In this document: one piece after another, positions 23,706 through 34,391 of the stretch
Position numbering within the stretch: position 1 is the stretch's first letter
Layout of the letters: every line of letters starts with the position of its first letter
From: Fundidesulfovibrio soli
GTDB lineage: Bacteria; Desulfobacterota; Desulfovibrionia; Desulfovibrionales; Desulfovibrionaceae
Reading direction: 5' to 3'
NCBI RefSeq assembly: GCF_022808695.1
Contig: NZ_JAKZKW010000001.1
Location: forward strand, 434,001-498,000
Length of the DNA: 64,000 bases
Notes under the pieces: generated by a model
Told to the model about the DNA's origin: nothing
What the model saw: the letters and a program-made list of their open reading frames with translations, nothing else
The model's database searches: none
Made by a program: the position numbers and the translations under genes

Positions 23706-25169
23706 ATGCCAAGCCCTCCCCGGCGCATGCGCCTGACGGACGAACTGGGCCAGCCGAAAACGCCCGGCACCGCGCGGGAGATTCTCGCCAGCGCGGACTC
23801 GCCGGACTGGCTGCTGCTCGGGCTCGGGCCGGACCCTGCCGCTCTGGCCGCCGGGCTGCCCCCCGAGGCGCGCGTGGCCTGGATCGAATGCCCGGACTTC
23901 GAGGCCCAGGCCGGGCCGGACTGGCTTGCGGCCATCCCGCCGCACTGGACGCGCCTGGAGGGGCTGCCCTCCCCGCCCGGCGGCAACATCTCCTTGTGCG
24001 TATCGAGCCTCCGGCTGTTCCCAGGCTTCTGGGGCCCGTTGATGGCTCGTCTGCGCCTACCCTCCCAGGCGGCCCCTTCGACAAAGCCGACGGTGCTCAT
24101 GCCCGCATCATGCGGACGGCTGCTGCGCCGCGAGCTGCTGAAGGCATTCAGGGCGCGTGGTTTCCGCGTCCTGGAGATCCAGCCCGGGGAACTGGCGGCC
24201 GTGCTGCGCCGGGAGAGCCCATCCCTGTTCCTGAGCGTCAATTTCGACGGCCTGGACGAGTCGGGGTTCGACTACCACCTGCTCAGGCGCGCCGGGGTGC
24301 CCGTGGCCGTATGGTGCGTGGACAACCCTTTCCACGCCCTGAGCCGCCTGAAAGGCCTGTTCTGGCGGGAAATCCATATATTCGTCACCGACGGCTGGTT
24401 CCTGGAGTCCCTGCGCCGCCACGGAGCAGAACACGCATACCATTTGCCTCTGGCCGCCTGCCAGAGCTTCTTCGACGCAAGGCCCGACGCCCCGCAGCTT
24501 CAAGGCAGGTTGCTCTTCGTCGGCCGCAGCGGCTTTCCCGGGCGGGACGACTATTTCGCGGGCCTGCGCCCGCCGCAGGAGCTTCTGGATGAAGCCCTGG
24601 CCATGCTTCCGCAGGGCCAACGCCCGGACTACGCCTGGTGGCTCAAGCGCCTTGGCTGCGAAACCCTTTGGCCCGGCAGGCAGGCTCGTCTGGCCGGGCT
24701 TGGCGCGGAGTTGTGCGGCCAGGCCTGGCGCGCCGCCGTCATCGAGGGCGCGGCAGCGGCCGGCCCCCTGTCGGTCTGCGGCGACAAGCGCTGGCCGGAG
24801 CTGGCGCGGGCCACCTTCGAGCTGCTGCCCCCTGTGGACTACTACGGCCCCCTGGCCGGGATGTACGCCTCCTGCCGCTGCGTCATCGGGGCCACAAGCC
24901 CCTTATTGCCACGCGGTCTGAACCAGCGCCACTTTGACGTGTGGGCAGCGGGCGGCCTGTTGCTCTCCGACGACACCCCTGGCCTGGACATCTTCCCCGC
25001 CGATCTCATGCGGGAGATCGTCTTCCGCACGCCCGGCGAAATCCCCGAGGCCCTGCGCCGCCTGGAATCCGCGGGCGAGGCCCTGCGCACCGCCTGGCGG
25101 GAGCATATCGCCTCCCAACACACCTACGATGCCCGGGTGGAAACCATATTGAATCACGCCACCCCTTGA
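23706..25169 (+). CDS. CgeB-like glycosyltransferase (DUF3880 type)
   Basis: 487 residues, divergent from rlmE. The middle (about 135-260) matches the DUF3880 pattern with [37 protein letters not shown], read here as separated conserved words, and the C-terminal third ([16 protein letters not shown], then DDTPGLDIF) is the Glyco_trans_1_2 region of CgeB-like proteins. These modify surface structures; in Desulfovibrio relatives are often near flagellin or glycan genes. Substrate unknown. Met8 at 23727 is an alternative start. The stop lies inside the tRNA-Ala promoter. Confidence 0.82.
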
Positions 25170-25194
25170 CCGCCCCTGCAAAAAGGCTTAACTA
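25166..25194 (+). promoter_or_regulatory. Promoter of tRNA-Ala
   Basis: TTGACC and TAACTA with exactly 17 bp between them; the -10 ends 13 bases before the mature tRNA 5' end. The -35 overlaps the stop codon of the preceding gene. Confidence 0.7.
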
Positions 25195-25207
25195 GCCTGC
25201 CTCGCAC

Positions 25208-25283
25208 GGGGGCGTAGCTCAGCTGGGAGAGCGCAGCGTTCGCAATGCTGAGGTCGTGAGTTCGATCCTCATCGCCTCCACCA
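25208..25283 (+). tRNA. tRNA-Ala, anticodon CGC
   Basis: A complete 76-nt cloverleaf with encoded CCA. Acceptor stem 25208-25214 with 25273-25279 includes the G3-U70 pair that identifies alanine tRNAs. The anticodon loop TTCGCAA gives CGC, reading codon GCG. The 3' end from 25260 is duplicated at 34148-34172, marking it as the integration site of the adjoining island; the gene itself is left intact. Confidence 0.97.
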
Positions 25284-25284
25284 A
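25260..25284 (+). repeat. Left attachment repeat (attL), within tRNA-Ala
   Basis: 25-bp exact match to 34148-34172, beginning in the T-loop and ending one base after the encoded CCA. The sequences diverge immediately outside both ends. Confidence 0.9.
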
Positions 25285-25290
25285 GAATAT

Positions 25291-25328
25291 CGGGCACTCG
25301 GAAGTCATTTCCAAGTGCCCGTTTTCTT
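25291..25328 (+). terminator. Terminator now serving tRNA-Ala
   Basis: CGGGCACT and AGTGCCCG form an 8-bp stem with further inner pairing (GGAA/TTCC), followed by TTTTCTTT. It is element-borne and replaces the terminator stranded at 34179. Confidence 0.75.
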
Positions 25329-25472
25329 TGTGCATACAGAGCGGGCATACAATTGGCGGAACATGGCTTTGCCGCCAACTCTAATGTGTCCCTTGCATGC
25401 TCAGGAAATATGCGGAAGCCTTGTTCTACCCAAACGACACGATACATCTCCAGGAAATTCCTGACAAAACCA

Positions 25473-25520
25473 GCTAATTCGCAATCAGCAGGCCAGTGGT
25501 TCGATTCCCCTCGCTGGCTC
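25473..25520 (+). pseudogene. 3'-half remnant of another tRNA gene
   Basis: An anticodon arm with 4 of 5 pairs and loop TTCGCAA (25473-25489) is followed by a five-base variable loop, a T-arm with canonical TTCGATT loop but one mismatch, and an acceptor-like end. No D-arm or 5' acceptor strand precedes it. Integrating elements that use tRNA genes often carry such 3' halves; this one suggests an earlier or tandem integration at the same place. Confidence 0.5.
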
Positions 25521-25533
25521 GAGAAATACCAAT

Positions 25534-25559
25534 GCCTTACGTTTGAATGAACGTAAGGC
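25534..25559 (+). terminator. Hairpin following the tRNA remnant
   Basis: Perfect 10-bp stem GCCTTACGTT/AACGTAAGGC with a 6-nt loop, followed by CTTTGCTGTTTTTG. Resembles a tRNA terminator and was probably carried with the tRNA remnant. Confidence 0.5.
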
Positions 25560-26419
25560 CTTTGCTGTTTTTGCTAACGTATTGCGAGACCTGGTTCACA
25601 ACGGCCGACCCCTTCAGGCACCAAATCTTGCCCTGAATCCGCCTGTTGCCTTACAGGCGACTGGATTGCCCTAGGGTTTTCTTGGACACCAACTTGGACG
25701 TATGGAACGGACGTCCTGGAGGTGTCAGATGGGCAACGAATCGGCAGGTCGGAAGCGGCCAGGACGGACGCCGGCACGGCGATAATGAAGCGGCGCTTCA
25801 TCATACTGCCTCTGGCCAAGACAGGTCGCCAACGCACGACATGCGCAAGTAATTTTGGGATATTTCATTTTGCCGCCCCCGGTTTGAGTTCAAGGGTGAG
25901 CTTTCGGAGATCCCTGGGGCAGGACATGAGGTTCGGCCAGAAATATCCCGGATTCCATCACGTTCGTCCGAGAAATGGGAGCAGGGGGGACAGCGTCATT
26001 GTGCCTGGACTATGAATTTAATTTTTATCATTAATGTCTGATTTGTAGCTTTTCCAGACGTCATTTTTCCCGCGTAATTCGTGAAAACCTCCGTCACACA
26101 TTCGTGTTTCCCAGGCTATCTTGCGACTCGCAACGATTATATACAGACACAATGCGTCAATCCCTCTCTAGCATTGTTCATATCAGACAAACGTAAATTC
26201 GAGATCGTTCACCGGCTTCAACAGGCACTCCGAAAACACGCGAGGAATGATGCAGTGAAACGCTGGGCTGATTTCTCATGTCCTGCTGCCCGCTCCTTGT
26301 CTGGCGTACAGGTGAAGAGCAGGTGTGAGAGGAGTTCGCAATGAAATCTACGTCAAAGGGCAACCATAAACATGCTCCGGCAACATGCCACAGGGCATGT
26401 TGCCGGGCAGGCCTCACAC
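25560..26419. other. Island stretch without recognisable genes
   Basis: About 860 bases between the tRNA remnant and the antiporter remnant. Short open frames exist on both strands but none has a good start signal with recognisable protein content. The middle (about 25990-26170) is AT-rich. A perfect 12-bp inverted repeat (CCGGCAACATGC at 26377-26388 with 26395-26406, 6-nt loop) precedes the antiporter remnant. The stretch looks like decayed mobile-element DNA. Confidence 0.5.
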
Positions 26420-26579
26420 CCTCCTGGAGGCGGCATTGCCATTGACCTTCTCGACGCTTTCGCTGCCGGCCAGCGACTCGCGGAGTTTGGTGCTGACCCT
26501 CACCTATTTCGTGATGTTGCTCTCGATACTTGCCCAAGGCCTGACGTTGGGCTGGATCGATCGAAAGGTTAGCATGTAG
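26420..26579 (+). pseudogene. C-terminal remnant of a CPA1-type Na+/H+ antiporter
   Basis: One frame reads GGIAID around 26426-26446; after a one-base shift another frame reads TLSLPASDSRSLVLTLTYF and continues FVMLLSILAQGLTLG to a stop at 26579. Together these match the conserved end of NhaP-like cation/proton antiporters (GGI.ALALSLP, LTY.VV.FSILVQGLT). Everything upstream is gone. It is a broken gene; it may once have formed an ion-homeostasis unit with the H+-ATPase downstream. Confidence 0.7.
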
Positions 26580-26688
26580 ACTGGAGTCCTCATGCCTTCT
26601 TCATGCCAGGATGGCGGCAGGCCATAGCCTGGCGTAGAGATCTCGCAATTCGTACAACCCGCGGCAAAACAAAGGTGGAAGGCCCTCT

Positions 26689-29184
26689 ATGGAACCAAAT
26701 GTCCAGCCCGGAGTTCCAGTGGCGGAGCCGGGATCGAAGCCCGACAGGAAGGACGATACCAAAGGCAATTTGAAATCCCTTTCCATGCCGGAGTTGCTGG
26801 AACGGCTTGGATCGTCTCCGGATGGCCTCAGCCAAGCTGAAGCGCGGAGCCGGCTGGCCCAACACGGACCGAACGAGATACAGGAAAAGGCGACCAACGC
26901 CTTCCTGAAATTCCTCTCCTATTTTTGGGGGCCTATACCCTGGATGATCGAAGCGGCCGTGGTCCTGTCGGCGATTGCCCGCCACTGGCCGGACTTCGCC
27001 ATCATCCTTCTTCTGCTACTGGCAAACGCCGTGGTGGGATTCTGGGAAGAACATCAGGCGGGCAACGCCATCGCCGCGCTGAAGGCCAAACTGGCGATCA
27101 GGGCTCGTGCGAAACGTGATGGAAAGTGGGTCACCCCGGAGGCGAGAGACCTTGTGCCCGGCGATGTCATCCGCTTGCGTCTGGGGGACATCGTGCCGGC
27201 GGATGCACGCCTCCTGGAAGGCGACCCGATAGAAGTTGATCAGTCCGCGCTTACGGGAGAGTCGTTGCCCGCCACGTGCGCATCCGGCGAGGCGGTGTTT
27301 TCGGGGGCGATAGTCCGGCAAGGCGAAATCGATGCAATCGTCTACGCCACCGGCAAGGACACCTACTTCGGCAAGACCGCGCAGCTGGTGCAGGTGGCCC
27401 GCACGGTCAGCCATTTCCAGCGAGCGGTGCTGAAGATCGGCAATTACCTGATCATCCTCGCAGTGTCCCTGGTGGTGCTGATTCTTTGTGTCGCGTTCTT
27501 TCGCGGCGACCAGATGCTCACCACGCTTCAGTTCGCACTGGTGTTGACGGTGGCCGCGATTCCCGTGGCCATGCCCACGGTGCTTTCTGTGACCATGGCC
27601 GTCGGCGCAAGGCTATTGGCCAGGAAAGAAGCCATCGTGACACGCCTGGCTGCCATCGAGGAGCTGGCGGGCGTGGACATCCTGTGTTCGGACAAGACCG
27701 GCACCTTGACCCAGAACAAGCTGACCTTGGGCGCTCCGTTCGCCGTTGACGGCGTCACCGCCGTCGACGTCATACGCAACGCCGCGCTGGCATCCCGCGC
27801 CGAAAACAAGGACACCATCGATTTGGCCGTGTTGGGCGGCCTGAGCAACGGTGAGGAATTGAAAGGCTATGAGGTGGTTCATTTCCAGCCGTTCGATCCG
27901 GTGCACAAGCGCACCGAGGCCACGGTCGTTGGCGCGGACGGAAAAGAGTTCAGAACGACCAAGGGCTCTGCACAGGTGATCATGGCGTTGTCGATCAACG
28001 CCGGGCAGGTGGAGCCAGCCGTCGAGAAGGCCGTCAATGAATTCGCGGCGCGGGGCTTCCGTTCGCTGGGCGTGGCGCGGGACGATGGAGGCGGTGCGTG
28101 GCGGTTTCTCGGCGTGTTGCCCCTGTTCGACCCGCCCCGGGAGGAAGCTAAGGCGACCATCGCCGCTGCTCGCCAGATGGGCGTCACGGTCAAGATGATC
28201 ACCGGCGACCAATTCGCCATCGCCCAGGAGACAGCGGGGAAACTGGGGCTGGGCAAGAATATTCTGGACGCCTCCGGGTTCGGCGGCACGGATCATCCTG
28301 AGACGCCCCAATTGGCCGATGCCATAGAGCAAGCGGACGGCTTCGCCCAGGTATTCCCCGAACACAAGTTCCACATCGTGGATGTCTTGCAGAAACGAGG
28401 CCACATTGTGGGCATGACGGGCGACGGGGTGAACGACGCCCCCGCGCTGAAAAAGGCCGACTGCGGCATCGCCGTCTCAGGGGCGACGGACGCGGCGCGT
28501 GCGGCGGCGTCCATAGTATTGATGACATCAGGCTTGTCGGTGATCATACATGCCATCACTGAGAGCCGGAAAATCTTTCAGCGGATGAACAGTTACGCCA
28601 TTTACCGCATCGCTGAAACCTTGCGCGTGCTGCTGTTCATGACGCTGGCGATTTTAGTTTTCAATTTTTACCCTTTGACTGCGGTGATGATCGTCATGCT
28701 GGCCCTGCTCAATGACGGCGCAATACTATCCATCGCCTACGACAACGTCCATTACAAGAACACGCCAGAGGCTTGGAACATGCGATTGGTGCTGGGGGTC
28801 TCCACTGTCCTGGGCGTCATAGGAGTCGTCTCCGCATTCGGCTTGTTTTATCTTGGCGAGCGGGTCTTTCATCTCGACCGTGCGCACATCCAGACCTTGA
28901 TGTATCTGAAACTGTCCGTGGCTGGACATTTGACGATCTTCCTGACGCGCACGCGCGGGCCATTCTGGTCCATTCGCCCCGCACGGGTTCTCTGGATAGC
29001 TGTTCTTGGCACGCAAATACTGGCGACTCTGATCGCGGTGTATGGTGTGTTCATGACACCGCTCGGCTGGGGCTGGGCGCTGTTCGTATGGGGTTACGCT
29101 TTGATCTGGTTCGTCGTGAATGATAGACTGAAATTGCTCGCCTACCGGGTGCTTGATACAACTGCAACCGCCGCTGCTGGCTGA
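26689..29184 (+). CDS. P-type H+-ATPase, plasma-membrane (P3A) type
   Basis: 831 residues, a near-typical length for the proton-pumping P3A family, which exports H+ at the cost of ATP and is found in plants, fungi and some prokaryotes. Seen in order: two membrane helices near 85-125, actuator TGES at 189-192, membrane helices near 255-310, phosphorylation Asp335 in CSDKTGTLTQNK, TGDQFAIAQETA, hinge TGDGVNDAP at 577-585, and about six C-terminal helices. The short C-terminus lacks the long autoinhibitory tail of plant pumps. A GGTGGAAGG precedes the ATG. It is island cargo; the role may be acid tolerance or energising ion transport. Confidence 0.93.
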   Translation: MEPNVQPGVPVAEPGSKPDRKDDTKGNLKSLSMPELLERLGSSPDGLSQAEARSRLAQHGPNEIQEKATNAFLKFLSYFWGPIPWMIEAAVVLSAIARHWPDFAIILLLLLANAVVGFWEEHQAGNAIAALKAKLAIRARAKRDGKWVTPEARDLVPGDVIRLRLGDIVPADARLLEGDPIEVDQSALTGESLPATCASGEAVFSGAIVRQGEIDAIVYATGKDTYFGKTAQLVQVARTVSHFQRAVLKIGNYLIILAVSLVVLILCVAFFRGDQMLTTLQFALVLTVAAIPVAMPTVLSVTMAVGARLLARKEAIVTRLAAIEELAGVDILCSDKTGTLTQNKLTLGAPFAVDGVTAVDVIRNAALASRAENKDTIDLAVLGGLSNGEELKGYEVVHFQPFDPVHKRTEATVVGADGKEFRTTKGSAQVIMALSINAGQVEPAVEKAVNEFAARGFRSLGVARDDGGGAWRFLGVLPLFDPPREEAKATIAAARQMGVTVKMITGDQFAIAQETAGKLGLGKNILDASGFGGTDHPETPQLADAIEQADGFAQVFPEHKFHIVDVLQKRGHIVGMTGDGVNDAPALKKADCGIAVSGATDAARAAASIVLMTSGLSVIIHAITESRKIFQRMNSYAIYRIAETLRVLLFMTLAILVFNFYPLTAVMIVMLALLNDGAILSIAYDNVHYKNTPEAWNMRLVLGVSTVLGVIGVVSAFGLFYLGERVFHLDRAHIQTLMYLKLSVAGHLTIFLTRTRGPFWSIRPARVLWIAVLGTQILATLIAVYGVFMTPLGWGWALFVWGYALIWFVVNDRLKLLAYRVLDTTATAAAG

Positions 29185-29731
29185 AACATGAATGTATATT
29201 CAATACTATGCGGTCACGCCCTTCAGCGTGATGTGGATTCTCATGCTCTCGATGTGGAACAGTCATGCCGCCTTGGTTGAAATATGTGTGGGTTCGACAT
29301 CGTCGATCTTGGCGCTGAGTTCTCCCAAGGCAATCCACCCGTTAACTTGTTGCTCTGAGGTAGAATTGCCTCGCGACTCCAAACGGGGAGATTTTACATG
29401 AAGACGTCCCCTTACCTCGACAGCCCAGATTCCGAGCATTCTGGAGCTGGCCCAAAGCGGCGCACCCGTGCCTGAGCTTCACCCTGGCGCCCGGTCTTTC
29501 GTAGACAACCCGCACGAGGTTTCGGCCATCCGTTCAAGTTCCCGAAGCCCGGCCCCTCTTTTAGTTGACTGTCCTCCAGTCAAGAGTGTTATGTATGCTT
29601 AAGTCCTAGGACCGACATAGCATCCACCCATGAAGATTGAGGGCGTCGGTACTTTTGCTTTTTGCTGTGGTGCGGGCAGTTCCCAGAAGTCCGTTGGCCG
29701 ATCCTGAATGACTTTGAAAAGGAGAGACACT
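29185..29731. other. Intergenic stretch in the island, no recognised gene
   Basis: 547 bases between the ATPase and DUF1269 genes. No frame gives a convincing protein. A perfect 7-bp inverted repeat TTGACTG/CAGTCAA with a 5-nt loop (29565-29583) overlaps a possible -35 element about 150 bp before the next gene and could be an operator. The rest shows nothing I can name. Confidence 0.4.
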
Positions 29732-30208
29732 ATGAGCGAAATCGTTGCCGTGGCTTACGGAGAAGCGAGCAAGGCCGCCGATGTGCGCCGCCAACTGCTT
29801 TTGATGGAAAAGGAATACCTCTCGGAAGTCGAGGACGCCGTGGTAGTTGAAAAATTGCCCAACGGGAAGATCTTCCTCAATCATATGACACCGCTCAACA
29901 TGGGGGAGTCACTCGGCAACACGTTCCTCGGAAACCTGCTCTCTCTGGTCATCCATGGTCCTGAACCATACGACGCCATCGAGCATCTCCCGGGTGCGGT
30001 CCAGGGGGCCCTTCGGGACGCGGGGGTCACCGACGCCTACATGAAAGATCTGGCAGAAGCGCTCAGGCCCGGGCAGTCCGCGCTCTTTGTGATGATCCGC
30101 CCTGGCGGTTCAGGCAAGGTCATTGAAAAGATGGGAGAGACCGGAGGAAAAATCGTCCACCTCAACCTGGCGCACAAGGACAAGAGCAGGCTGATCGTCT
30201 CTGCCTAG
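29732..30208 (+). CDS. DUF1269 family protein lacking the usual membrane core
   Basis: 158 residues from ATG at 29732, with AAGGAGAG upstream. The N-terminus (AVAYGEASKAADVRRQLLLMEKEYLSEVEDAV, conserved in pieces) and C-terminus (PGQSALFVMIRPGGSGKVIEKM) match DUF1269. In the family a glycine-rich hydrophobic segment normally separates these halves; here it is replaced by a shorter, more polar GESLGNTFLGNLLSLVIHG region, so membrane insertion is doubtful. Function of the family is not known; it often occurs near stress or ion-transport genes. Here it sits between the H+-ATPase and sugar-phosphorylase genes. Confidence 0.8.
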   Translation: MSEIVAVAYGEASKAADVRRQLLLMEKEYLSEVEDAVVVEKLPNGKIFLNHMTPLNMGESLGNTFLGNLLSLVIHGPEPYDAIEHLPGAVQGALRDAGVTDAYMKDLAEALRPGQSALFVMIRPGGSGKVIEKMGETGGKIVHLNLAHKDKSRLIVSA

Positions 30209-30512
30209 TGCGGCATCCTCTGTTTACTACGAACGCAAGGGGGGAATGTGCGGTCAGGCCATTACTGGCGGCTTGTTCCCCCTTTGTGATCTGCAGCCTA
30301 GGGAGGCCTCCCGGGCCAAGCCCCAGTGCCCATGAGCCCATGCCGGTTGCCGGGGGAGCCCCCCGCGATCTTCCGGCTGTCCTCAGCCCGACGCGGCCGG
30401 GTGCCGCGCGAGGAAGCAGGAGAATTCATACGCAGCGAGCCGCAACCATTCCAGAGCATGACGCTTGTAAGCGCCCCACAGCCGGACGGTGCGCCGTACA
30501 CGGAGGCTGACC
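30209..30512. other. Intergenic stretch, no recognised gene
   Basis: 304 bases between the DUF1269 and phosphoglucomutase genes. No plausible protein, and no clear promoter or terminator beyond GC-rich inverted fragments near 30295-30315. Confidence 0.4.
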
Positions 30513-31268
30513 ATGGATGAGAACGGATTGGGCTTGCCCGGCAGCATCCGCGCCTGTCTCTTCGACCTCGATGGCGTCCTCACCAAGACGGCGAGGCTTC
30601 ACGCCGAGGCATGGAAGCGGATGTTCGACGACTTTCTCGCCAGCCGCGCCCGTGCGGACGGGCAACCATTCGTCCCCTTCGATGCGGTTGGCGATTATGA
30701 CCAATACGTCGACGGCAAGCCGCGTGAAGACGGAATACGTTCGTTTCTTGAATCGCGCGGCATAAAGCTCTCCGAAGGGAAAAACGACGACCCGGAAACA
30801 GCGGAAACCATTCATGGGCTCGGAAAGCGCAAGAACGGTATTTTTCTCTCCCTGATGCGAGAACGGGGTGTGGAAGCATACCCCGGTTCATTGCGCTATG
30901 TGCGCGCGGTCAAGGCAGCCGGACTTCGCACCGCGGTGGCATCGTCGAGCACGAACTGCCGGGAGGCGCTCATTGCCGCCGGCATTGCGGAACTGTTCGA
31001 CGCTCGCGTCGACGGCATCGTGGCCAGGGAGCGGCATCTCCCGGGCAAGCCGGCCTCGGACACCTATGTTGCGGCGGCCCGCGCTCTCGGCGTCGATCCT
31101 GCCGGGGCGGCGGTCTTCGAGGATGCCCTTGCCGGTGTGGCCGCAGGCCGCGCGGGCAAGTTTGGATTCGTGGTCGGCGTGGACCGCATGGATCAGGCCG
31201 ACGAGCTTCGCAGTCACGGCGCCGACATTGTCGTCAACGACCTGGCTGCGCTCCTGGTGTCGAAGTGA
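30513..31268 (+). CDS. Beta-phosphoglucomutase family HAD hydrolase
   Basis: 251 residues from ATG at 30513 with GGAGG ten bases upstream; the in-frame codons from 30489 are not needed. HAD motifs: nucleophile Asp18 and acid/base Asp20 in FDLDGVLT, the SSST segment of motif II, a Lys in GKPASD and the FEDALAG of motif IV. The insert between motif I and II contains the cap domain. Beta-phosphoglucomutase converts beta-glucose 1-phosphate to glucose 6-phosphate. It overlaps the GH65 phosphorylase gene by GTGA; that enzyme would supply the beta-glucose 1-phosphate, making a two-gene disaccharide salvage pathway. Confidence 0.9.
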   Translation: MDENGLGLPGSIRACLFDLDGVLTKTARLHAEAWKRMFDDFLASRARADGQPFVPFDAVGDYDQYVDGKPREDGIRSFLESRGIKLSEGKNDDPETAETIHGLGKRKNGIFLSLMRERGVEAYPGSLRYVRAVKAAGLRTAVASSSTNCREALIAAGIAELFDARVDGIVARERHLPGKPASDTYVAAARALGVDPAGAAVFEDALAGVAAGRAGKFGFVVGVDRMDQADELRSHGADIVVNDLAALLVSK

Positions 31269-33667
31269 TCCTCCATCCTGCATTTCGCCTTGAGCCTTGG
31301 GCTCTTCACGAGACGGAACTCCACCTCGACCACCTGGCTCAGAGCGAATCGCTCTTTGCGCTTTCGAATGGCCACATCGGCTTGCGTGGCAACCTTGACG
31401 AAGGCGAACCCCACGGGCTGCCGGGAACATACCTGAACGGATTCTACGAACTGCGGCCCCTGCCCTATGCCGAGGCTCAATACGGGTTGCCTGAGTCCAG
31501 CCAGGCGCTCGTCAATGTCGCCAATTGCAAGCTGATGCGACTGCTCGTCAATGACGAACCTTTCGATGCCCGCTACGGCATCCTCCGGAGCCATGACCGC
31601 GTGCTTGATTTTCGCGCCGGCACCCTGGCGCGGACGGTCGAATGGACCTCACCGGCAGGGCAAACGGTGCGTGTGACCTCGACCAGGTTCGTTTCCTTCA
31701 CGCATCGAACGATTGTCGGCATATGCTACGAGGTCGAACCGTTGGACTGGCCCGCCAACATCGTCGTGCAGTCCGAACTCGTCGCCAACGAGCAAATGCC
31801 CTCCTTCGACGGAGACCCCCGCGTTTCCAGCGCGCTGGAATCACCCCTGCTGCCTGTGGACCACCAAACACGGGATGCGGAGAACGTGCTGATCCATCGA
31901 ACCCGCAAGAGCGGGCTGCACGTCGTAGCGGCGATGGATCATGTTGTCACGGGCACTTCCGGGGTGCATGTCGCTTCGGAAACCTCTTCAGATTCGGCCC
32001 GGATCGTCGTCACTGACGAACTCAAGCCGGGACAACGCCTGCGCCTGGTCAAGCTGGTGGCCTACGGATGGTCGTCCAAGCGCACGGTGTCGGCGCTGCG
32101 CGACCAGGTGGCCGCCGCCATAGCGGCGGCGCGACAGACCGGATGGGACAGCCTGCTCGAGGGACAGAGACAATACCTCAATGACTTCTGGGCGCGCGCC
32201 GATGTCGAGATAGCCGGAGATCCAGGGCTGCAGCAGGCTGTCCGCTTCGCCCTCTTCCATGTGCTCCAGGCGGGCGCACGGGCAGAGAGGCGCGCCATCC
32301 CCGCAAAGGGCCTGACGGGAAACGGCTACGACGGCCACTCGTTCTGGGACTCGGAGACGTTCATCCTGCCTGTCCTGACCTACACCATGCCGGCTGCCGC
32401 GGCCGATTCATTGCGCTGGCGCCACTCAACGATCAATGCTGCCCGGCGGCGGGCCGACGAGCTGGGCTTGGCCGGGGCCGCCTTCCCATGGCGCACCATC
32501 AACGGCGAGGAGTGCTCGGGGTATTGGCCCGCTGGAACCGCCGCATTTCACGTCAACGCGGACATCTCCGACGCGGTTATCCGCCATGTCAACGCAACCG
32601 GCGATGAAACTTTCGAGCGTGAAATCGGCATGGATGTTCTCGTGCAGACCGCGCGGCTGTGGCGCTCCCTCGGCCACCACGATCCGCACGGACGGTTTCG
32701 AATCGACGGCGTGACTGGCCCCGACGAGTACAGCGCCCTTGCCGACAACAATGTCTACACCAACCTCATGGCGGCCCGGAACTTGGCCGGCGCCGCCGAC
32801 GCGTGCGAGCGCCACCAGGACAGGGCGAGCGATCTCGGTGTGACAGCCGAGGAAATGGCCGACTGGCGCGCCGTCGCGGACCACATCTATATTCCCTACG
32901 ATAAACGGCGAGGCGTGCATCCACAGGCTGAAGGCTTCACCGACCACGAGGTGTGGAACTTCGCCGAAACGAAACCAGAACAGTACCCACTCATGATGCA
33001 TTTTCCCTACTTCGACCTCTACAGAAAGCAGGTCGTGAAACAGCCTGACCTCGTACTTGCCATGCAGCTTTGCGGATATGCATTCACTCGCGATAAAAAA
33101 TCAAGGAACTTTGAATACTACAACAAAATTACTGTCCAGGATTCTTCCCTGTCCGCATGCACGCAAGCCGTAATAGCCGCAGAGGTTGGCCATCTCCGGC
33201 TTGCGCTCGAATATGCCGCGGAAGCTGCGTTCATTGACCTGCAAGACATAAATCACAACGTACGGGATGGCCTGCATCTCGCTTCCCTTGCAGGGACATG
33301 GATTGCACTGGTCAACGGTTTCGGCGGCCTGCGAGATCACGCAGGCATATTGTCTTTTGCCCCGCGCCTGCCTGAGCACCTCACATCACTGGCCTTCTGC
33401 ATTGTGTACCGCCAATTTTATCTTCGGGTGGAGGTGACAACGACCACCGCCACCTACAGGCTCACGCGGGGATCAGGCACGATGCAGATCACGCATCACG
33501 GAGAGCCGCTGACGCTGAACAATTTCGATCCAATCGAACGGCCGATTCCGGCTTCTATGCCAACCGAGTCGCCAACATTGCCTCCAGGCCGTGCGTTGTG
33601 CCTCCGCGAGCGGGGATCGGGCCTGTGGAGCCGGACGCAGCAGAGGAAGGGGTCTCCAGCGGGGTGA
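31265..33667 (+). CDS. Family 65 glycoside hydrolase (inverting disaccharide phosphorylase)
   Basis: 800 residues, starting at GTG 31265 inside the preceding stop. GH65 enzymes phosphorolyse alpha-glucobioses such as trehalose, maltose or kojibiose to glucose and beta-glucose 1-phosphate. Seen: the N-terminal beta-sandwich words LSNGHIGLRGNLDEG, the (alpha/alpha)6 barrel with GHSFWDSETFILPVLTY, and the catalytic acid Glu488 in GVTGPDEYS. Exact substrate cannot be assigned. The last 35 or so residues (from about PTESPTLPPGR) do not look like GH65 and read out of frame through the upstream part of a hybrid-kinase remnant, so the natural stop has probably been lost. Confidence 0.92.
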   Translation: MILHPAFRLEPWALHETELHLDHLAQSESLFALSNGHIGLRGNLDEGEPHGLPGTYLNGFYELRPLPYAEAQYGLPESSQALVNVANCKLMRLLVNDEPFDARYGILRSHDRVLDFRAGTLARTVEWTSPAGQTVRVTSTRFVSFTHRTIVGICYEVEPLDWPANIVVQSELVANEQMPSFDGDPRVSSALESPLLPVDHQTRDAENVLIHRTRKSGLHVVAAMDHVVTGTSGVHVASETSSDSARIVVTDELKPGQRLRLVKLVAYGWSSKRTVSALRDQVAAAIAAARQTGWDSLLEGQRQYLNDFWARADVEIAGDPGLQQAVRFALFHVLQAGARAERRAIPAKGLTGNGYDGHSFWDSETFILPVLTYTMPAAAADSLRWRHSTINAARRRADELGLAGAAFPWRTINGEECSGYWPAGTAAFHVNADISDAVIRHVNATGDETFEREIGMDVLVQTARLWRSLGHHDPHGRFRIDGVTGPDEYSALADNNVYTNLMAARNLAGAADACERHQDRASDLGVTAEEMADWRAVADHIYIPYDKRRGVHPQAEGFTDHEVWNFAETKPEQYPLMMHFPYFDLYRKQVVKQPDLVLAMQLCGYAFTRDKKSRNFEYYNKITVQDSSLSACTQAVIAAEVGHLRLALEYAAEAAFIDLQDINHNVRDGLHLASLAGTWIALVNGFGGLRDHAGILSFAPRLPEHLTSLAFCIVYRQFYLRVEVTTTTATYRLTRGSGTMQITHHGEPLTLNNFDPIERPIPASMPTESPTLPPGRALCLRERGSGLWSRTQQRKGSPAG

Positions 33668-34098
33668 TTGTCTGTCGGCCAGCGCCAGCTTTTGAAGGGC
33701 TTCGCGTCCTGGTGGCCGAGGACGACCAAATCAACCGGTTCCTGGCGGTCAATCTCCTTGGGCGGCTCGGCCACCAGGTGGAGGTAGCGCACAACGGACA
33801 AGAAGCCGTCGAGACGCTCAAGGCCGGGAACTTCGACCTGGTTCTCATGGACGTGCGCATGCCGGACATGGACGGGGAAGAAGCCGTAGCAGCCATACGG
33901 CGCGGTGATGCAGGAGAAGAGAAGGCCAAAGTCCCGGTGGTGGCCTTAACGGCCAACGCCCTGCGCGGAGACCGGGATCACCTCTTGGCCGCCGGCATGG
34001 ACGATTACCTGGCCAAGCCCTTGGAATTAGCGGAGCTGGACCGGGTGCTGGCGGAGTTGCTGGCAAAACGGGACGGCATAAAGGCGCCCTTGGCGTAA
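33598..34098 (+). pseudogene. Receiver-domain remnant of a truncated hybrid histidine kinase
   Basis: 166 codons. After a linker-like leader (PVEPDAAEEGV) comes a full receiver domain: acidic pair in VLVAEDD at 42-43, phospho-acceptor Asp85 in LMDVRMPDMDG, Thr118 and Lys140 in YLAKPLE. This linker-receiver arrangement is the end of a hybrid kinase; the sensor and kinase parts are absent and the frame starts inside the GH65 3' end. It might still be translated from GTG 33663 as a lone receiver. It lies 50 bases inside the right island border. Confidence 0.75.
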
Positions 34099-34147
34099 AC
34101 GCTCGCCTGGAGTCCTTTGGAAAGATCGGAGAAGAACATGAATACCT

Positions 34148-34172
34148 GTTCGATCCTCATCGCCTCCACCAA
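34148..34172 (+). repeat. Right attachment repeat (attR)
   Basis: 25-bp exact copy of the tRNA-Ala 3' end at 25260-25284, here without any tRNA body. It is followed six bases later by a strong terminator. Confidence 0.9.
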
Positions 34173-34178
34173 AAGAAA

Positions 34179-34218
34179 CAGGGCCTCGCGGCAATAGCCG
34201 CGAGGCCCTGATTTTTTT
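34179..34218 (+). terminator. Displaced tRNA-Ala terminator
   Basis: Perfect 14-bp GC-rich stem (34179-34192 with 34197-34210), loop AATA, then ATTTTTTT. No gene ends here now other than the kinase remnant 80 bases upstream; its place immediately after attR indicates it originally ended the tRNA transcript. Confidence 0.9.
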
Positions 34219-34391
34219 GGGCTTCAACGCTCTTGTCCCGCCCTAGAAACATTGCCATAATTTCCCTCAGACTGTTATATCCCTCATGAACCCCGTTCTG
34301 GCTGCGTACCCCTGACGCCTGACCGCATCGAAGCCATGCTGGAGCCCGGCCCTGCCGTGCCCCCCGTGCGACCCACAACCAGGAGCATGTT

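Follow-up and report, generated by a model that had tools for sequence, protein, structure and literature searches.

A probable tRNA-Ala island remnant without an integrase in Fundidesulfovibrio soli, carrying a foreign-looking proton pump gene and a predicted trehalose phosphorylase pathway

How did 8.9 kb of DNA carrying genes for a proton-efflux ATPase and a predicted disaccharide phosphorylase pathway come to lie directly behind a tRNA-Ala gene of Fundidesulfovibrio soli, and what kind of element is it? The stretch belongs to a 64,000-nucleotide window (the whole piece of DNA that was analysed; contig NZ_JAKZKW010000001.1, positions 434,001 to 498,000, forward strand). A preliminary description of the window had claimed that an exact 25-bp repeat of the tRNA-Ala 3' end brackets the 8.9 kb, that the original tRNA terminator is stranded beyond the right repeat, and that the island has no integrase and is defective. 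The window was compared with a set of six congeneric genomes (G001 to G006; G006 is 66% complete). We consider it likely that the element is the remnant of a tRNA-Ala island that lacks an integrase and has been kept for its foreign cargo.

Both copies of the 25-mer were located (Table 1). They are exact, lie in direct orientation and are spaced 8888 bp apart, so that the element has a complete tRNA gene at one end and, at the opposite end, a 3' tRNA fragment pointing the same way, as in tRNA islands. Elsewhere in the window, positions 25208-25290 find exact matches of no more than 25 nt. Because 200 Markov shuffles of the window gave at most 15 bases, the direct repeat is well beyond chance, and the bracketing repeat claimed earlier is secure. 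When the tRNA stretch was searched against its own genome (E <= 0.001), the only matches were the stretch itself, the right repeat and one place on another contig with 76% identity. The insert also deviates in composition, a further mark of tRNA islands: the G+C content (GC) of positions 25285-34147 is 59.3%, compared with 68.2% in the left flank and 66.1% in the right flank, and GC at third codon positions is 0.72-0.75 in four cargo genes and 0.85-0.94 in four flanking genes.

It had been proposed that relatives be searched for an empty tRNA-Ala followed by the terminator near 34179. This was done, and the arrangement was found in two of the six congeners (G001 and G004). The 7.3 kb upstream of the element are 92.4% identical to G001 and collinear with it to the last base of the repeat; the G001 tRNA-Ala then runs directly into sequence 87% identical to window positions 34148-34220, that is, to the repeat and terminator. 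At the occupied left end, the match to G001 and to G004 ends exactly at the repeat. Joining the two flanks of the window (25101-25284 plus 34173-34222) restores the match, with 232 bases aligned to G001 (90%, one gap) and 128 bases to G004 (89%, two gaps). Because the tRNA-Ala genes of G001 and G004 adjoin the terminator that is found beyond the right repeat of the window, the DNA entered between tRNA-Ala and its terminator, and the stranded terminator of the preliminary description is borne out. Other hairpins follow tRNA-Ala in G002, G003 and G005, and G006 gave only a weak match. Folding of nine hairpins that follow tRNA-Ala 3' ends across the genus gave strong structures in eight cases (z -4.2 to -7.4), the exception being a weak one on contig C1 of G003 (z -1.1). 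The hairpin that now follows the window tRNA has a similar counterpart behind the tRNA-Ala of G003; the two regions are 88.6% identical across 131 bases, a length that takes in most of the tRNA.

A whole-genome search with PF00589 returned 13 matches, 12 of them over the cut-off. No tyrosine integrase or remnant of one was found in the element at E <= 0.001 (serine recombinases were not searched for), in agreement with the earlier statement. The two closest matches on the contig of the element lie at distances of ~229 and ~258 kb. According to the Islander paper (PMC4383910), tRNA islands combine a complete tRNA gene with a displaced direct 3' fragment, may cross over in the T-stem (J) region and have empty sites in relatives, and in these respects the window element is alike. 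It is unlike them in having no integrase, in being short (8.9 kb) and in being mosaic. Because the Islander criteria require an integrase gene within the element and none was found there, the stretch counts as a remnant rather than as an active island. The tRNA-island kind itself is fairly ordinary.

Analysis of the cargo revealed that the ATPase scores 1045.2 bits with TIGR01647 (cut-off 615.5), while the next P-type family reaches 344.8 bits. Residues 28-815 of its 831 align to the plant proton pump AHA2 (5ksd), and the DKTGT phosphorylation motif is kept, as are the conserved Asn, Arg and Asp of the membrane region; we take the roles and positions of these three residues to be those of AHA2. 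It shares 80.5% identity with plasmid proteins of Caballeronia and 74.5% with a protein on a Rhodococcus plasmid. Its best identity is 53% among the proteins of 58 relatives, and it is 31-37% in the six congeners among the matches listed. In 394 other genomes of the phylum the best identity is 82%, and 38 genomes pass E <= 1e-200. A tree (FastTree, midpoint root) placed the ATPase together with five plasmid proteins and two genomes of the phylum, in a clade with support of 0.97. Matches to the DUF1269 protein were found in 111 plasmid records, each at less than 60% identity, and gave no clue to its function.

The GH65 protein has three Pfam domains (PF03632, PF03636 and PF03633), which comprise the N-terminal, catalytic and C-terminal domains of the family, and contains the Glu of the GPDE motif, which is presumably catalytic. 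It is ~61-63% identical to Streptomyces proteins. Identity is at best 41% in the 58 relatives and, aside from the 87% of a second copy described below, 45% in the 394 phylum genomes; no match was found in the six congeners (G006 being incomplete). In a tree built in the same way, GH65 groups with actinobacterial sequences at 1.0 and with Streptomyces at 0.94, away from the sequences of its own phylum. Because the ATPase groups with plasmid-borne pumps and GH65 with actinobacterial enzymes, the cargo looks foreign, and distant bacteria or plasmids appear to be its source.

The substrate of GH65 can be narrowed from the active-site residues. TRIGPP is the motif of TbGP, a tested GH65 trehalose phosphorylase of subgroup 1 from Thermobispora bispora, at positions 64, 392, 394, 402, 416 and 585 in CsKP numbering (PMC8537180). 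Compared with this published motif rather than with the TbGP sequence, the window protein matches at R392, I394 and G402. Its loop 3 reads SGY, and the same text gives HNE for maltose phosphorylase and SAY for a trehalose phosphorylase. Because of R392, I394, G402 and the SGY loop, trehalose is the likeliest substrate and the protein a probable trehalose phosphorylase; the "trehalose/maltose-type" disaccharide of the preliminary description is thereby restricted. The overlapping HAD protein scores 163.9 bits with TIGR02009 (beta-phosphoglucomutase [beta-PGM] family hydrolase), above the cut-off of 153.35, and we infer its beta-PGM role only from the overlap with GH65.

A second HAD-GH65 pair is present on contig C8 of the same genome. 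The same two genes adjoin a Na+/H+ exchanger there, and an intact tRNA-Thr(CGT) lies ~5 kb away. The C8 pair is unlike that of the window in that it is followed by another P-type ATPase that, in our own reading of its sequence, appears to be of the heavy-metal type, and no tRNA-Thr repeat brackets it in the 90 kb examined. Between the two copies, synonymous divergence (dS) is 0.57 for the HAD gene and 0.65 for GH65, and the ratio of nonsynonymous to synonymous divergence is 0.16 and 0.11, respectively; both genes are under purifying selection, and the cargo is probably working. As a reference, dS is 0.11-0.35 for five neighbouring genes compared with G001. Because dS exceeds that of these neighbours and GH65 is unmatched in the six congeners, the simplest reading is that the two copies represent two separate acquisitions. 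A trehalose-6-phosphate synthase family gene was also noted on contig C5 (140549-141928); it occurs in one of the six congeners (two of seven genus genomes), and because of this gene the host may make its own trehalose.

We also examined where the cargo genes occur elsewhere (9 of 48 plasmid records with the ATPase, and 7 ATPase loci among the 38 phylum genomes). On the plasmid of Rhodococcus sp. AQ5-07, phosphoketolase and aldolase genes are followed by an uninterrupted row of the genes for the ATPase, beta-PGM and GH65, in this order; on that of Frondihabitans sp. PAMC 28766, the ATPase (in two pieces), beta-PGM and GH65 lie within ~10 kb. The ATPases of these plasmids and of the Caballeronia sp. 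SBC2 plasmid are 72-81% identical to that of the window. Genes for phosphoketolase, aldolase, acetate kinase, polyphosphate kinase or slipin, all absent from the window, are present in varying combinations on the three plasmids, and no match to DUF1269 was found beside their ATPases; among all neighbourhoods examined, DUF1269 matched the window only. Phosphoketolase, aldolase, acetate kinase or DUF3141 genes were present in two of the seven phylum ATPase loci. In Streptomyces, each of the three GH65 loci examined includes beta-PGM, and the ATPase is missing from all of them. Nine phylum loci with a related ATPase or GH65 were examined. Because only three of these contain any tRNA gene, and the seven checked via the ATPase have no GH65, the cargo elsewhere is not tied to tRNA islands. 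No paper describing this gene combination was found in the open-access literature.

Further inspection of the 8.9 kb indicates that it is a mosaic and not one clean block. Near the left end lies a fossil tRNA-Thr stretch that matches a partial site in G003 at 83% and an intact tRNA-Thr site in G004 at 81%; as an observation in its own right, a tRNA-Thr half inside a tRNA-Ala element is the trace of a second tRNA-linked insertion. The short genus repeat that follows resembles an insertion-sequence end, and a Solidesulfovibrio carbinolicus plasmid matches it over 65 bp. At the right end, the homology of GH65 to the C8 copy stops at 33629 and a receiver domain then follows; the GH65 frame overruns this point (33629-33667), which gives it a new C-terminal tail. 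A hybrid kinase downstream of tRNA-Ala in G002 and G005 was considered as the source of the receiver fragment and rejected, as those proteins are only 41-42% identical and better matches exist elsewhere (64%, contig C11 of G004).

Table 1. Features of the element and its borders (window coordinates unless a contig is named)
Feature	Position	Strand	Details
tRNA-Ala (anticodon CGC), regenerated target gene	25208-25283	+	ARAGORN; Rfam tRNA 60.9 bits
Left copy of 25-bp att-like repeat (tRNA T loop to 3' end plus one base)	25260-25284	+	
Element-borne terminator-like hairpin now 3' of tRNA	25285-25332	+	Fold -20.8 kcal/mol, z -5.5
Fossil 3' half of tRNA-Thr(CGT) with hairpin (25534-25559) and downstream sequence	25471-25661	+	
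Short genus repeat	25660-25758	+	Other places in genus 87-98%
Na+/H+ exchanger fragment	26454-26573	+	Residues 383-422 of 432-aa gene on contig C8, 72.5% identity
Intact plasma-membrane-type (P3A) proton-efflux P-type ATPase, 831 aa	26689-29184	+	
DUF1269 protein, 158 aa	29732-30208	+	PF06897 over residues 64-154
HAD-family beta-phosphoglucomutase-like protein, 251 aa	30513-31268	+	Stop overlaps GH65 start
GH65 protein, 800 aa, predicted trehalose phosphorylase	31265-33667	+	
Truncated receiver domain, probable C-terminal remnant of hybrid histidine kinase	33637-34098	+	64% to stretch of 889-aa frame in G004
Right copy of 25-bp repeat, displaced tRNA 3' fragment	34148-34172	+	
Original tRNA-Ala terminator, stranded beyond element	34173-34222	+	Fold -35.4 kcal/mol, z -7.4; homologue directly after tRNA-Ala in G001 and G004
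Second HAD-GH65 pair	Contig C8 41525-44733 (L055 11525-14733)		83.8% nucleotide identity over 3.2 kb

The following course of events would account for these observations. An incoming element that carried a copy of the tRNA-Ala 3' end and its own hairpin terminator would have recombined with the chromosomal tRNA-Ala(CGC) inside the 25 bp. This would have regenerated a complete tRNA at the left and moved the old 3' end, with the native terminator, 8.9 kb rightwards. To judge from the class of site, a tyrosine integrase probably catalysed entry and has since been lost from the element, which would then have been trimmed and patched with other debris, the remainder being kept for its cargo. As a member of its family, the P3A ATPase would export protons. 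The GH65/HAD pair, from family and active-site residues, would convert trehalose and phosphate to glucose and beta-glucose-1-phosphate, and the latter to glucose-6-phosphate, with no ATP spent. Together, the pump and the pair would help to hold pH and membrane potential and to reuse trehalose in times of osmotic, cold or acid stress.

The same tRNA gene looks like a hot spot for insertion. G003 has two extra tRNA-Ala 3' fragments of 52-53 nt on other contigs (L050 10086-10138 and L051 10000-10051), and one of them is followed by the sequence that follows tRNA-Ala in G004 (85% over 4.5 kb). The Islander paper (PMC4383910) describes anticodon (A) and T-stem (J) crossover types; the 52-53-nt fragments would fit the A type and the 25 bp of the window the J type. 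This suggests larger or stacked islands in G003 with an anticodon-type crossover at the same tRNA. The frames beside the G003 tRNA-Ala look like phage genes; a Pfam search with three of them found a resolvase domain in one and no match for the other two. In G002, an integrase-like fragment lies ~0.9 kb downstream of tRNA-Ala, with a score of 27.1 bits that equals the Pfam cut-off exactly. A frame near the G005 tRNA-Ala that had been taken for an excisionase gave no match. Islands at tRNA-Ala(GGC), another type of site with repeats of at least 79 bp, were seen in two further genomes, G037 (L125 1365-7693) and G046 (L126-L127); in the former, an integrase-like frame, predicted from sequence, adjoins the tRNA.

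Several observations weigh against an island remnant of this kind or against the functions proposed for its cargo. With neither integrase nor excisionase in the element, the mechanism of entry is not directly visible. Collinearity of the right flank breaks down over longer distances, as in G001 the terminator is separated by 12.9 kb from the homologue of window position 34246 onward. (This stretch was itself tried as a tRNA-linked island and rejected; its greater part is found elsewhere in G002, G003 and G005, and part is on contig C25 of the present genome.) A consensus terminator scan listed the right hairpin on the plus strand and the left hairpin on the minus strand only, and terminator-like sites in the region (10, against 8.4 with a standard deviation of 2.9 in shuffles) were not in excess; nor were promoter-like sites (2, against 2.7 by chance). 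The pairing of ATPase and GH65 is real but not general: GH65 and beta-PGM lie near the ATPase in two of the nine plasmid loci and in none of the seven phylum ATPase loci, and beta-PGM is beside GH65 in one of two phylum GH65 loci. The families named in the preliminary description (P3A pump, DUF1269, GH65 and beta-PGM) were confirmed, except that the HAD protein scores 91.7 bits with the beta-PGM equivalog TIGR01990 and so misses its strict cut-off of 189.4. In GH65, position 64 is A instead of the T of TbGP (the C8 copy has T), and positions 416 and 585, which hinge on gap placement, are a gap and Y in the alignment as made. Finally, because the ends are mosaic, the cargo need not have come with the event that made the repeats.

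This last point leads to the strongest alternative, a two-step origin, in which the 25-bp pair is the trace of a tRNA-Ala element to which the cargo never belonged, having arrived later, by homologous or insertion sequence-mediated recombination, from a tRNA-Thr island or a plasmid. We think it somewhat improbable, although it would explain why a fossil tRNA-Thr(CGT) half lies next to the cargo while the C8 pair is near an intact tRNA-Thr(CGT), why an antiporter fragment and a probable histidine kinase fragment border the cargo, and why the left hairpin is of the kind found in G003, whose tRNA-Ala neighbours look phage-like. The lack of a tRNA-Thr repeat around the C8 copy speaks against this origin, and the dS values make the two copies too diverged for a recent transfer from C8. 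That the stretch is a mini-element still mobilisable by an integrase supplied in trans is quite unlikely. The identity of the two repeat copies and the PF00589 matches elsewhere in the genome would allow it, but no third copy of the repeat was found in the genome (at the search threshold), there is no second close copy of the ATPase in it, and the debris at both ends suggests decay. A megablast search of plasmid and phage records, moreover, did not find the whole unit; five plasmid records had pieces of the ATPase or the short repeat, and no phage matched. That the stretch is native DNA, and that a local duplication or rearrangement of the tRNA end produced its second 25-bp copy, is very hard to credit: the long-range difference in the right flank indicates that the region rearranges, but the empty sites in two congeners largely refute this explanation, and the unmatched GH65, the low identities listed for the ATPase and the deviant composition argue against it as well.

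The remnant of a tRNA-Ala island thus stays the likely reading. Going beyond it, we suggest tentatively, and with rather more doubt than belief, that a proton pump and a trehalose phosphorylase form a stress module that can be transferred across phyla, on plasmids and here in a tRNA island. Trehalose phosphorolysis would yield sugar phosphate without ATP, and its fermentation would pay for proton export when respiration stops; HAD-GH65 would have been gained twice, independently, near two tRNA genes. The locus is a well-mapped tRNA island that probably outlived its integrase and whose displaced terminator marks the point of entry. Through it, a P3A pump and a probable trehalose phosphorylase pathway, closest to distant or plasmid-borne genes, appear to have entered a genome whose six congeners are without close versions of them.

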